Source of the DNA: Agromyces sp. Root81
GTDB lineage: Bacteria; Actinomycetota; Actinomycetes; Actinomycetales; Microbacteriaceae
Direction of reading: 5' to 3'
DNA length: 64,000 bases
NCBI RefSeq assembly: GCF_001429165.1
Contig: NZ_LMIR01000001.1
Span: 394,875 to 458,874 of the forward strand
In this document: positions 1,403 to 8,267 of the stretch, in pieces
Layout: each line of letters opens with the position of its first letter
Position numbering within the stretch: the stretch's first letter is position 1
Made by a program: the position numbers and the translations under genes
Notes under the pieces: model-generated
Told to the model about the DNA's origin: nothing
The model's input: only the letters and a program-made list of their open reading frames with translations
Databases searched by the model: none

Positions 1403-1468
1403 AGGACCCGTTCTGGTCCGCTGGCGTGGTGAACACCGTGCCGATGAAGCGGACTTGACATGGGTCCT
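1403..1468 (+). promoter_or_regulatory. Structured 5' leader of sigA (nested stems)
   Basis: Three coaxial stems can be read directly. P1: AGGACCC 1403-1409 pairs with GGGTCCT 1462-1468. P2: GTCCGCT 1416-1422 pairs with AGCGGAC 1448-1454. P3: 1423-1430 pairs with 1435-1442 around the loop GAAC (eight pairs, two of them G-U). A competing hairpin, GGACC 1404-1408 with GGTCC 1415-1419, uses bases of both P1 and P2. The element starts at the predicted transcription start and lies 85 nt before the sigA ATG. I do not recognise it as a named RNA family; cis-regulatory leader or short RNA is inference. Confidence 0.55.
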
Positions 1469-1552
1469 CATAGTGTCCGAAAACGACCGGGCCGAGTGCA
1501 TGAGCCGAGTCCGCGAGGGCACACGGGCACGACGGTAGGAGAGGTTCAACGA

Positions 1553-2839
<1,287 letters not shown>

Positions 2840-2846
2840 GCCGCCG

Positions 2847-4103
2847 GTGCGCTACGCGCCGGCGATCCTCGTCGGCAGACTCACCCGATTCGCCGCCCGG
2901 CTGCGCAAGCCCGGCGGCGGATCGGCTGTTCCGGGCCTCATCGTCAACCGCATCGCCCCGAAGTACCTGAAGCGCACGCTCTCGGGCTTCCCGCAGGGGC
3001 TCGTCGTCGTCTCGGGCTCGAGCGGCAAGTCGACGACCACGAAGATGCTCGTCGCGATACTCCGCGCCCACGACGTCGACGTGTTCACCAACCCGTCGAC
3101 GGCGAACATCAGCCAGGGCCTCACCTCCGCACTGCTCGAGCAGGCCGACTGGCGCGGGCGCGTGCCCGGCGACGTCGCGGTGCTCGAGATGGACGAGGGC
3201 CATGGTGCGCTCGTCATGCAGGGCGTCGACGCCCGAGTCGTGTGCCTGACGAACGTCATGGTCGACCAGATCGACCGGTTCCACGACTCCGAGATGGTCG
3301 CCTCCATGCTCGCCCGCATCGCGGCGCGGGCCGGCGAGTCGATCGTCGTGAACGCCGACGACGCCTATCTCGAACGGCTCGCCGCACGAGTGCGGCCGGG
3401 CGTCGCGGTCCACCGCTTCGGCGTCACCGACGCGGTGTTCGCGGCATCACCGCGCGGCCTCGGCTACACCCAGACGAGCGATGCCCGACTGTCGAGCGGC
3501 ACCGACGTGCTCGTGCAGACGGTCGACGGTGCGTCCGCGGTGCTCGATGACGCCGGGGCATCCGTCTCGATCGGTCTTCCGGCGCGCGGCGTGCACTACG
3601 CCGTCGATGCGGCGGCCGCTTACGCCACCGCCAAGGCGGTGCTCGGCGAACGCTTCTCGAGCTCGACAGCTGCCGATGCGCTGAGCGCGATCCCTGCCGT
3701 GTTCGGGCGGGGAGAGCGCACCACGGTTCGCGGACAGGACGTCGAGTTCGTGCTCGTGCAGAACCCGTCGAGCTATCAGTTGAACGTCGACAGCATCGCA
3801 CCGGGCACCGAGCAGATCCTCTTCGCGATCGGTTCCGACGTGCGCGACCCGTCGTACTTCTGGCCGACGGATGCAGCGTCACTCGAGCGGGTCTCGATCG
3901 TGACGGGCTCGAAGTCCGCCGAGGCGGCGCTCATGCTCGCCTACGACGGTGTCGAGATCGACCGTGTGGAGCCCGACCTCGGCAGTGCCCTCGACGACTT
4001 CCTCGCGATGCCGGCGCCGGCATCCGGCGTCAAGACGATCGTCTTCACCGCCGATGCGATGCGGCGCACCCGCACCCACCTCGGACTCGCTGGAGCAGAA
4101 TGA
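2847..4103 (+). CDS. murT: MurT-like lipid II amidotransferase ligase subunit, atypical
   Basis: 418 residues, GTG start. A Mur ligase central domain with P-loop GSSGKSTTT (about residues 58-66) is followed by a DUF1727 domain. MurT activates the D-Glu alpha-carboxyl of lipid II with ATP, and its partner GatD supplies ammonia to make D-isoglutamine. Two features depart from the family. The insertion that normally carries a four-cysteine zinc ribbon has no cysteines here; the only Cys visible in the protein is in VVCLTN. In DUF1727 the usual NPAG and DGRDVSWLWD-type motifs read NPSS and DVRDPSYFWPTD. The last base pairs overlap the gatD start as ATGA, implying translational coupling. The fold call is firm; the reaction is uncertain. 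Confidence 0.8.
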   Translation: MRYAPAILVGRLTRFAARLRKPGGGSAVPGLIVNRIAPKYLKRTLSGFPQGLVVVSGSSGKSTTTKMLVAILRAHDVDVFTNPSTANISQGLTSALLEQADWRGRVPGDVAVLEMDEGHGALVMQGVDARVVCLTNVMVDQIDRFHDSEMVASMLARIAARAGESIVVNADDAYLERLAARVRPGVAVHRFGVTDAVFAASPRGLGYTQTSDARLSSGTDVLVQTVDGASAVLDDAGASVSIGLPARGVHYAVDAAAAYATAKAVLGERFSSSTAADALSAIPAVFGRGERTTVRGQDVEFVLVQNPSSYQLNVDSIAPGTEQILFAIGSDVRDPSYFWPTDAASLERVSIVTGSKSAEAALMLAYDGVEIDRVEPDLGSALDDFLAMPAPASGVKTIVFTADAMRRTRTHLGLAGAE

Positions 4104-4837
4104 CCCTCACGATCGTCTCGTTGCTTCCCCGACTGCAGAACACGAACGGCGACGCCGAGAACGCCCGGGTGCTCGCGACGCGGGCTCGATGGGCCGGGCT
4201 CGACGCCACGGTCGTCGAGGTCGAGACGGCGGAGCAGCTTCCGCAGCGGGTCGACGCGATCGTGCTCGGCTCGGGCAGCGACTCGTCGCTCGACGAGAGC
4301 CGCGAACTGCTCCTCACGATGCACGACGAGTTCCGCCGGTGGGGTACCGAGGGCGTCCCGATCCTCTCGATCGGCACCGGCTGGGAGCTGCTCAGCTGGG
4401 GCATCGAGCTCGCGAGCGGCCGCAGCATCGAGGGTCTCGGCATCCTGCCCGGCCGCGCGGTTCCGCGCGCGAACCGCGTGACCGGTGATGTGGTGGTGAA
4501 GAGCCCGCGCTTCGGCGTGCTCGTCGGCTTCGAGAACCACGCACGCGACTACGTCGGCGCCGAGGCGTCCCCGCTGGGTCGCCTCCGTGCCGGGCACGGC
4601 AACGGGCGTGACTCGGGCCAGGAGGGTGCGGTCATGGGCGACGTCTACGGCACCCACCTGCACGGACCGGTGCTCGCGAAGAACCCCGAGTTCGCCGACC
4701 GGCTCCTCGAGACCATGGCCACTCGTGCCGGGCTCGAGTACATGCCGGGCGCGCGTGCCCAGACGGTCGATGCCTACGCGTCGGCCGCTCGTGCTGCGCA
4801 GCTGACTGCAGCCGGCGTCTCGATTCCCGAGGCCTGA
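4100..4837 (+). CDS. gatD: GatD-like class I glutamine amidotransferase, no nucleophile Cys
   Basis: 245 residues, overlapping murT by 4 nt. The type I glutamine amidotransferase fold is recognisable: the N-terminal SLLPRLQNTNGDAENA segment, VLGSGSD, and YGTHLHGPVLAKNPEFAD with the expected catalytic His near residue 191. At the nucleophile elbow, where GatD normally reads ICGGYQLL, this protein reads IGTGWELL, so the catalytic cysteine is a glycine; no cysteine occurs anywhere in the protein. Glutaminase activity is therefore unlikely by the known mechanism. It may be a structural partner of MurT, or the pair may use another amine donor. Confidence 0.75.
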   Translation: MTLTIVSLLPRLQNTNGDAENARVLATRARWAGLDATVVEVETAEQLPQRVDAIVLGSGSDSSLDESRELLLTMHDEFRRWGTEGVPILSIGTGWELLSWGIELASGRSIEGLGILPGRAVPRANRVTGDVVVKSPRFGVLVGFENHARDYVGAEASPLGRLRAGHGNGRDSGQEGAVMGDVYGTHLHGPVLAKNPEFADRLLETMATRAGLEYMPGARAQTVDAYASAARAAQLTAAGVSIPEA

Positions 4838-4889: not shown

Positions 4890-5126
4890 TCAGTGACGGT
4901 CGTCGGCGAGCAGCTTGCTCGACTCGTCGTGCCAGCTGTGCGCGATCTGCGAGAGCTTCTCCTGGTGCTTGCGGCCGTGGTGGGCGCAGAACAGCAGTTC
5001 GCCGCTCGCGACGACGACGCGGATGTACGCCTGGGCGCCGCACGCATCGCATCGGTCGAGCGCGGTGAGCTCGTAAGGGGTCTCGAGTTCATCGACCGCA
5101 CCGGTGGTCTCGGTGGACTGGGTCAT
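4890..5126 (-). CDS. DUF7455 family small zinc-binding protein
   Basis: 78 residues. The core reads LDRCDACGAQAYIR and LLFCAHHGRKH, a Cys/His set suited to binding one zinc ion. This family is widespread in Actinobacteria and typically sits next to a type II topoisomerase B gene, as here with parE on the other strand. The function is not known. The start is supported by a GGAGGA-type site just upstream on the minus strand. Confidence 0.85.
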   Translation of the reverse strand: MTQSTETTGAVDELETPYELTALDRCDACGAQAYIRVVVASGELLFCAHHGRKHQEKLSQIAHSWHDESSKLLADDRH

Positions 5127-5257
5127 GGCTCCTCCTTCGTGCTCATGCTCGGTGTTCCGTTCATCAATGAAAACACGAGAGCGGCCCTGTTCCTTCCGTT
5201 GGGCCGGGCATTTCGCTCAGCGCGTAGTGGCTGAGCGGATGTGTCGGCGCGGCTCAG

Positions 5258-5263
5258 TAGGCT
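5258..5263 (+). promoter_or_regulatory. -10 element of parE (near-leaderless)
   Basis: TAGGCT, 8 nt before the GTG at 5272. Confidence 0.4.
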
Positions 5264-5271
5264 TGTTCGAC

Positions 5272-7350
<2,079 letters not shown>

Positions 7351-7451: not shown

Positions 7452-8267
7452 TCAGTTGCCGTAGAGTGCGACGGCCCCAGTGCGGTCGGAGTTCGTCATC
7501 GTCAGATCGTCGGACGAACCGTTGCACTGCGGGTAGTGCATGATCGATGCCGAGTCGTACGGCGTCAGCGGACGCCAGTTGTTGTCTTCGAAGCACGTGC
7601 CCGATTCAGGGCGCGTGTGCTCGTGCCGGAACCCGAGGGTGTGGCCGAGTTCGTGGCCGAGGATGTTGGTCGGCGTCCAGGCGCCCGAGCCCCAGATCGA
7701 GTCGTCGATGAGCACGTTCTGCTGACGGTCGGGCGTGCTCGGGAAGAACGCGCGGGCGATGTACTGCGAGGTCTGCACCGGCTCGACCGAGAACAGTACC
7801 GACTTGTTGCGCGTCGTGCACTGGCCGTCGGCGCTGCTCACGTACACGAAGTCGATCTTCGATGACGCGGACTCCCAGAGGGCCGCGCCGCTCGCCATCG
7901 CGTTGACGACGTCGGCGTGACGCGTGCCGAACTTCGTGCTGACGCAATAGGTGAGGTCGCCGACCTGCGAGGCCGACCACTTGTCGTCGGCGCCGTTGAC
8001 CGTGTTGACGATGAGACCGTCGGTCGGCGTCTCGGGACCGGCGAGCAGGTCGTAGAACTTCCGCAGGTCGCCCTTGTCCGAGATCACCTCGTCACCGTTG
8101 ACGATGTAGCTGCCATCGACGTCTCGGTAGGTCGATTCCGCGAACTCCTGGTAGGAGGGAACGTCGGAGTCGTCGAGCGGGGTTGCGCCGGCGGCCGGGA
8201 TTACCGTGCCGACAGCGAGCGCGGCGGCCGCGGTGGCGGCGAGCGCGAGTGTTCTCGTGATTCGCAT
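7452..8267 (-). CDS. Secreted HExxH zinc metalloprotease (M57/astacin-like)
   Basis: 271 residues. An N-terminal signal peptide (MRITRTLALAATAAAALAVG, cleavage probably near AGA) indicates export. The catalytic motif is HELGHTLGFRHEH near residues 205-217, which supplies three zinc His and the catalytic Glu. A Met-turn-like ASIMHYP follows near residue 242. The layout fits small secreted peptidases of the M57/M12 group (metzincin-like). Four cysteines (YCVS, GQCT, GTCF and PQCN) could form disulfides outside the cell. It stands alone; two dyad elements lie upstream (8336-8373). Confidence 0.8.
   Translation of the reverse strand: MRITRTLALAATAAAALAVGTVIPAAGATPLDDSDVPSYQEFAESTYRDVDGSYIVNGDEVISDKGDLRKFYDLLAGPETPTDGLIVNTVNGADDKWSASQVGDLTYCVSTKFGTRHADVVNAMASGAALWESASSKIDFVYVSSADGQCTTRNKSVLFSVEPVQTSQYIARAFFPSTPDRQQNVLIDDSIWGSGAWTPTNILGHELGHTLGFRHEHTRPESGTCFEDNNWRPLTPYDSASIMHYPQCNGSSDDLTMTNSDRTGAVALYGN

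Follow-up and report, generated by a model that had tools for sequence, protein, structure and literature searches.

We analysed a window of 64,000 nucleotides from Agromyces sp. Root81 (Microbacteriaceae; contig NZ_LMIR01000001.1, positions 394,875 to 458,874, forward strand), in which a murT–gatD gene pair between sigA and parE encodes a GatD subunit without the catalytic cysteine beside a MurT with an apparently intact ligase site. We consider it probable that the pair is a MurT/GatD complex with a changed reaction: MurT would join the bridge amino acid of type-B peptidoglycan to the alpha-carboxyl of D-Glu, and GatD would be a structural subunit. Sequence comparison supports loss of the glutaminase site, retention of the ligase site, selection on the pair, its restriction to one lineage and its exclusivity in the slot; substrate, amine, product and the role of GatD are inferred from the distribution of the pair and from gene exchange in the slot. 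New here is that the sigA–parE slot holds alternative ligases, namely the Cys-less pair, a separately derived pair (group D) or a CofE-like protein.

In the Schleifer–Kandler scheme the bridge of type-B walls is attached at the alpha-carboxyl of D-Glu. This carboxyl is amidated by the studied MurT/GatD (PMC6113224; papers are cited by PubMed Central (PMC) identifier and from excerpts of their text), and in Clavibacter the cross-bridge sits on D-Glu (PMC9603630). Because the altered pair is spread through a family with such an unusual wall cross-link, it is a candidate for the enzyme that starts the bridge.

The glutaminase site is lost and the ligase site is kept

Profile matches identify the two proteins as clear MurT/GatD homologues outside the curated equivalogs. 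In Pfam, Mur_ligase_M (PF08245) scored 49.1 bits (cut-off 24) and GATase_3 (PF07685) 66 bits (cut-off 27), and MurT_C reached 20.9 bits on MurT, below its cut-off of 25. Against the NCBIfam equivalogs GatD scored 122 bits with NF052463 (cut-off 450) and MurT 87 bits with NF052464 (cut-off 800). The best PDB sequence matches of both proteins are MurT and GatD from S. aureus and streptococci.

Despite its PF07685 match the window GatD lacks the Cys of the Cys–His site of class I glutamine amidotransferases, and the whole protein contains no cysteine. In the PDB alignments its elbow reads PILSIGTGWELL opposite LTICGGYQFL of S. aureus GatD, and Cys94 falls on Gly92. The catalytic His is present: S. 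aureus H189 (GTYLHGP) aligns with His188, the second His of GTHLHGP. An earlier annotation of this DNA, the sequence-only reading, had described an elbow without Cys, a protein without any Cys and a retained partner His, and the alignments bear out all three. Both C94G and C94S abolished activity in S. aureus GatD, and D349N in MurT removed most or all of it (PMC6113224). Since glycine at position 94 kills the S. aureus enzyme and is the native residue here, we regard the window GatD as a non-glutaminase.

For the comparison of MurT we distinguish group A (Cys-less pairs), group B (Cys-type pairs of the family), group C (zinc-ribbon pairs) and group D (MurT derived separately, GatD lacking the triad). 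Lys61, Glu114, Asp116, Glu117 and Asp334 are each present in 88/88 group A sequences. Two positions separate the groups: Arg at position 139 is found in 14/14 Cys-type group B sequences and in 0/88 of group A, and His250 in 88/88 of group A versus 2/14 of group B. The MurT model (predicted local distance difference test, pLDDT, 90) gave template modelling (TM) scores of up to 0.68 to MurF and of 0.50–0.65 to MurT; as a single-chain model it says little on domain opening.

The window MurT has no CxxC motif. With the test pattern CxxC(10-30)CxxC, the Cys tetrad of the zinc ribbon was found within the family in 11/15 group D, 0/90 group A, 0/14 group B and 3/3 group C sequences. Outside the family it occurs in 0/28 order-level MurTs, all with Cys-type partners, and in 19/29 class-level ones, the other 10/29 being without it. 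Absence of the ribbon is common to working-type pairs and therefore predates the Cys loss of group A; the ribbon has been described as confined to a subset of species (PMC6085368, PMC6113224). The missing four-Cys insertion reported in the sequence-only reading is thus real, but not informative, as 28/28 order-level Cys-type pairs lack it too, and ribbon loss was rejected as a sign of repurposing.

Loss of the cysteine is seen in Microbacteriaceae only

A GatD match was obtained in 115 of 150 Microbacteriaceae genomes. Among 110 family loci the elbow Cys is missing from 91, present in 17 and unread in two (L038, L110), both of which lack it in a separate alignment. Its place is taken by Gly, Ala, Ser, Thr or Asn, a separate group having His there, and in 32/91 Cys-less loci the catalytic His is replaced as well. 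A further 80 named loci show spread, not frequency, because the group A MurT profile was built from Cys-less pairs. They include Agromyces, Cryobacterium, Rathayibacter, Clavibacter, Curtobacterium, Leifsonia, Subtercola, Agreia, Pseudoclavibacter and other family members. Here the elbow Cys is absent in 74/80, with six unread at first; Clavibacter michiganensis (L176) and Subtercola boreus (L184), read later, also miss it, and four (L164, L172, L174, L187) are without a read elbow. Three titles are from outside the family: a Micrococcales metagenome-assembled genome (MAG), an 'Acidobacteria' MAG and a 'Planococcus' genome. The loci labelled 'Acidobacteria bacterium' (L205) and 'Planococcus sp. 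APC 4015' (L216) have Microbacteriaceae-type slots and stand among family rows in a parE tree; these labels look wrong.

Outside Microbacteriaceae the elbow Cys was present in 78/78 loci read. Both Cys and His are kept in 28/28 order-level and 30/30 class-level loci, and Cys in 20/20 further low-scoring order-level loci; the order-level reading covers 48 of 73 strong matches and the class-level reading the best-scoring 30 of the 54 genomes with a match beyond the order. The sequence-only reading had named two observations that would speak against it, a Cys-less GatD in lineages with ordinary A-type walls and a second canonical murT–gatD pair in the genome. Neither was seen, A-type walls being assumed for the 78 outside loci. 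The own-genome search found no second GatD, and the second canonical pair was rejected; a weak partial GatD match on contig C4 appears, from its sequence, to be an anthranilate-synthase-like protein. A Pfam search of the genome with MurT_C gave no match, but it is blind to the window MurT too and hence is no control. Two other genomes of the family, G122 (L014, L082) and G113 (L044, L054), carry two Cys-less pairs each, of which L082 and L054 are without adjacent sigA or parE.

A quick MurT tree (76 rows) places group A in a single clade (support 99) next to the Cys-type pairs of the order and family; group D forms another, deep clade (support 99), to which the long divergent rows L106 and L230 belong. 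The tree includes 18 rows of group A after thinning and half of the order and class rows, with L221–L223 omitted; its long rows are L106, L230, L104 and L078. In group D the elbow Cys is replaced by His or Asn and the catalytic His by Ile or Leu (10/10 loci), and the D349 position of MurT is Asn (5/5), so that all three places of the triad are altered. Judged by these residues, the family lost its glutaminase site separately in group D, which occupies the same slot wherever this was read. At the group D loci L105, L107–L109 and L221–L229 the GatD elbow resembles THNALEVLG, and MurT mostly carries the zinc-ribbon tetrad.

Retention of His188 and Asp334 in the window pair would suit a GatD that is still alive, with a different nucleophile or the kept His freeing ammonia from glutamine. 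We consider this highly improbable: the C94G and C94S exchanges abolish activity in S. aureus (PMC6113224), the residue at the Cys place is variable, and about a third of the Cys-less family loci (the 32/91 above) have replaced the His too.

The pair is maintained by selection

Over seven overlapping Agromyces pairs the ratio of nonsynonymous to synonymous substitution rates (dN/dS) was 0.09–0.27 for gatD and 0.08–0.26 for murT; the controls from the same pairs gave 0.01–0.08 (sigA) and 0.05–0.22 (parE). Judged by these ratios, gatD is under purifying selection. The GatD model (pLDDT 96) has a TM score of 0.90 to S. aureus GatD. Two small genomes, of 927,303 bases (L104) and of 1.43 Mb (Rhodoluna lacicola), also keep the pair in the slot.

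Simple decay of an amidation system that is no longer needed would account for the lost catalytic residues and for the 8/150 genomes with neither pair nor CofE-like protein. We rejected it as next to negligible, with dN/dS well below 1, the same slot occupied in distant members including the two small genomes, and a single clade with intact MurT motifs. The argument of the sequence-only reading that two subunits diverging together and staying coupled speak against decay holds by dN/dS, by the shared slot and by the kept MurT residues.

The sigA–parE slot holds alternative ligases

Most group A pairs sit between sigA and parE; among the exceptions are L012, L016, L054 and L082, where the stretch read contains no sigA or parE. 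In group B neither gene was found within the stretch read in 14/14 loci. Sorted by content, the 150 family genomes comprise 95 with group A, 21 with a CofE-like protein, 11 with a Cys-type pair only, nine with group D, three with a canonical zinc-ribbon pair only, three with divergent group D and eight with none; the group A count includes five genomes recognized by MurT alone, one that has a weak CofE-like match besides its pair, and G099, read later as a Cys-less pair. Among G112, G092 and G027 the elbow was readable in G112 only. Thus 29/150 genomes have no recognizable pair (21 with and eight without a CofE-like protein), contrary to the description of murT–gatD as universal in Actinobacteria (PMC6085368).

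The CofE-like protein (E < 1e-100) was found in 21/150 genomes, none of which has a recognized MurT/GatD, versus 121 genomes with a pair. Fisher's test gave 6e-19, computed with 120 pair genomes and with kinship ignored; for that reason the swaps within genera are the better evidence. Group A and CofE-like occupants occur in the same genus in g7, g9, g13, g58, g77 and g84 (the group A genome of g84 also has a weak CofE-like match), groups A and D in g38, g43, g49 and g68, and group D with CofE-like in g59. Agromyces itself includes a genome, G274, with the CofE-like protein (L284). A quick parE tree with 121 rows gives at least 16 changes in the state of the slot, a rough count with 35/112 inner branches open. 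The tree is of one gene; 27/183 loci failed the length limits and 35/156 duplicate or crowded rows were removed by hand.

In 19 of 22 genomes (the 21 of the sample and Agromyces G274) the CofE-like gene is the first recognized gene after sigA. In G020 it lies 1.4 kb further on, and G044 and G094 are without sigA in the stretch read. Two examples scored 49 and 30 bits against PF01996, and a slot protein scored 30.6 bits against the CofE equivalog (cut-off 180.65). CofE forms an amide from a carboxylate and an amino acid via an acyl phosphate, by a mechanism strongly similar to that of MurD (PMC10861534). The exchange between a Mur-type ligase with a dead glutaminase and a CofE-like protein points to ligation of an amino acid.

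Other genes recur in the slot. Over 6 kb, 16 CofE-like loci contained ATP-grasp_ST in 14 cases, a racemase-like pair in 11 and MurJ in two, and many group A slots carry a truncated and then a complete alanine-racemase-like gene between sigA and parE. The racemase-like genes and MurJ point to a wall precursor. The truncated and complete copies look as if they form a heterodimeric racemase, one that may provide the bridge with its D-diamino acid.

The racemase-like doublet is also found at L288:2072-3681, where the first copy is a C-terminal domain only, and at L289:2081-3807, where it seems degenerate around the catalytic Lys. A MurJ-type flippase follows the CofE-like gene at L292:899-2479 (tblastn) and L295:929-2515 (PF03023). 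ATP-grasp_ST (PF14397) lies on the opposite strand at L105:2358-3359 (group D) and L283:883-1899 (CofE-like). As an obligatory partner the ATP-grasp_ST gene was rejected, the genome of Agromyces sp. Root81 having no match.

Wall types and the proposed reaction

Type-B walls of two subtypes are on record for genera with the pair: B2gamma for Agromyces aureus (PMC5217419), for Subtercola and Agreia (PMC5945732) and for Herbiconiux (PMC10011130), and B2beta for Frondihabitans (PMC5945732). The small genome of Rhodoluna lacicola (1 430 433 bp) belongs to an organism with a measured B2beta wall containing D-Ala-D-Dab (Dab, diaminobutyrate; PMC4156110). A group A pair is present at loci of Agromyces, Subtercola, Agreia, Frondihabitans, Herbiconiux, Rhodoluna and Clavibacter; wall type and pair were matched at genus level, except for Clavibacter michiganensis (species) and R. 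lacicola. In L110, taken as R. lacicola, the sole GatD match is the slot pair and no CofE-like match was found. Leucobacter is of type B (PMC4804768), with Dab and gamma-aminobutyrate listed in PMC4148977.

We propose that MurT phosphorylates the alpha-carboxyl of D-Glu2 in a peptidoglycan precursor and that the amine of the cross-bridge amino acid, instead of glutamine-derived ammonia, attacks the acyl phosphate. In Agromyces this amino acid would probably be D-diaminobutyrate. The type-B (2-to-4) cross-bridge would begin with the bond so formed, and GatD would be retained as a structural, possibly substrate-shaping, subunit. Other family members would carry out the same step by the separately derived MurT with its other dead GatD, or by the CofE-like ligase. 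Repurposing with an amino acid in place of ammonia had already been suggested in the sequence-only reading; the exclusive sharing of the slot with an amide ligase family favours it, and the zinc-ribbon argument once offered for it is not supported. More tentatively, three non-orthologous ligases (Cys-less MurT/GatD, the group D pair and the CofE-like protein) might swap in one slot, each starting the type-B bridge with a D-diamino acid or glycine on D-Glu, with the old glutamine pocket of GatD binding or positioning that amino acid.

Two other reactions would also leave GatD dead and MurT active. In the first, MurT would make isoglutamine from free ammonium. There is precedent in mitochondrial carbamoyl-phosphate synthetase I, where a dead glutaminase domain accompanies an active partner and free ammonia is used, and the kept nucleotide and Mg residues of MurT would serve this reaction too. 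We consider it improbable: a carboxamide would block the carboxyl required by the bridge, the Arg conserved in Cys-type MurT occurs in none of the 88 group A sequences, and the alternative occupant of the slot is CofE-like, whose studied members couple amino acids (PMC10861534). In the second, the pair would link an amine to some other carboxyl group, in a wall precursor or a wall polymer. ATP-grasp_ST and racemase-like genes suit other wall modifications as well, and a CofE homologue of unknown role lies within a wall-modification operon of S. pyogenes (PMC13059722). This is rather unlikely in our view, as the studied MurT/GatD works on exactly the D-Glu alpha-carboxyl (PMC6113224) and Cys-less pairs were seen in the type-B family only.

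Several observations weigh against bridge loading by the pair and its slot alternatives. Besides the retained Asp334 of MurT and His188 of GatD, 3 of the 95 group A genomes carry a Cys-type pair as well, and weak CofE-like matches (1e-37 to 1e-47) stand alongside the pair in G053, G123 and G147. The missing ATP-grasp_ST match in the window's own genome counts on the same side. The main weakness is that 22/150 family genomes lack both the Cys-less pair and the CofE-like protein (the Cys-type-only, zinc-ribbon-only and empty classes given above). In 20 slots sigA is followed by parE with no query gene between them, at a distance of at most about 0.7 kb; these are sixteen genomes plus G019, G121, G051 and G062, 19 of them belonging to the 22 just named and the remaining one having a divergent pair at another place. 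In G049 and G119 (genus g50; L381:260-2622, L302:4019-6375) the slot is wide and holds no ligase but what appears to be an amino-acid ATP-binding cassette transporter. If the owners of empty slots have type-B walls, the ligase is not universal and another route exists.

Comparison with known systems

The pair resembles the MurT/GatD lipid II isoglutaminyl synthase of S. aureus, S. pneumoniae and S. pyogenes in being adjacent, in gene order, folds and ATP/Mg residues and in the equivalent of Asp349. It differs in the Gly for Cys of GatD, in a MurT without the zinc ribbon and in scores below the NCBIfam equivalog cut-offs, and some relatives also lack the His. MurC–MurF are acyl-phosphate ligases that add an amino acid; the window MurT shares their Mur_ligase_M domain, and its model resembles MurF. 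Unlike MurC–MurF, which carry an N-terminal UDP-binding domain, it has only 418 amino acids without this domain and travels with a partner gene. CofE/FbiB, the F420-0:gamma-glutamyl ligase (PF01996), is comparable in two respects: the family occupies the slot where the pair is absent, and its studied enzymes make an amide via an acyl phosphate. It is not homologous to Mur ligases, and the studied enzymes depend on GTP. As in the dead amidotransferase domain of carbamoyl-phosphate synthetase I, the catalytic Cys is gone while fold and partner are kept; unlike that enzyme, the window pair is proposed to use an amino acid.

Type-B peptidoglycan has long been used as a taxonomic marker. Among the matches listed from the open-licence PMC literature, no paper brought MurT, GatD and Microbacteriaceae together, and no title or start of an abstract named a bridge-loading enzyme. 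The slot offers concrete candidate genes for this enzyme in culturable bacteria, with sister species that carry different ligases as a built-in control. It also provides an example of a glutaminase subunit retained after its chemistry was lost, apparently twice.

Layout of the locus

Coordinates of the pair, its key residues and the borders of the slot are given in Table 1. The murT and gatD open reading frames (ORFs) overlap by 4 bases (ATGA).

Table 1. Features of the sigA–parE slot in the window (positions of the whole stretch)
Feature	Position	Strand	Remarks
sigA/rpoD	1460..2839	+	left border of the slot; ORF; precedes most group A loci
MurT-like Mur ligase, group A, without zinc ribbon	2847..4103	+	418 amino acids, GTG start
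Walker A GSSGKSTTT, ATP binding	3015..3041	+	Lys61 invariant, 88/88 group A MurTs
Glu114, Mg-coordinating by position (S. aureus E108)	3186..3188	+	88/88 group A; role of E108 from PMC6113224 (excerpt)
Asp334, equivalent to S. aureus MurT D349, third triad residue, kept	3846..3848	+	PDB alignment; 88/88 group A
Cys-less GatD, predicted pseudo-glutaminase subunit	4100..4837	+	245 amino acids
Nucleophile elbow SIGTGWELL	4367..4393	+	Gly92 (4373-4375) at the Cys94 position
His188, equivalent to S. aureus GatD H189, kept in the window	4661..4663	+	missing from some sister lineages
parE, type IIA topoisomerase B	5104..7350	+	right border of the slot

The closest named relative found is Agromyces cerinus (L141), with a MurT identity of 95 percent. 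Adjoining parE, positions 7452-8267 on the minus strand encode a secreted-looking protein with the metalloprotease motif HELGHTLGFRHEH.

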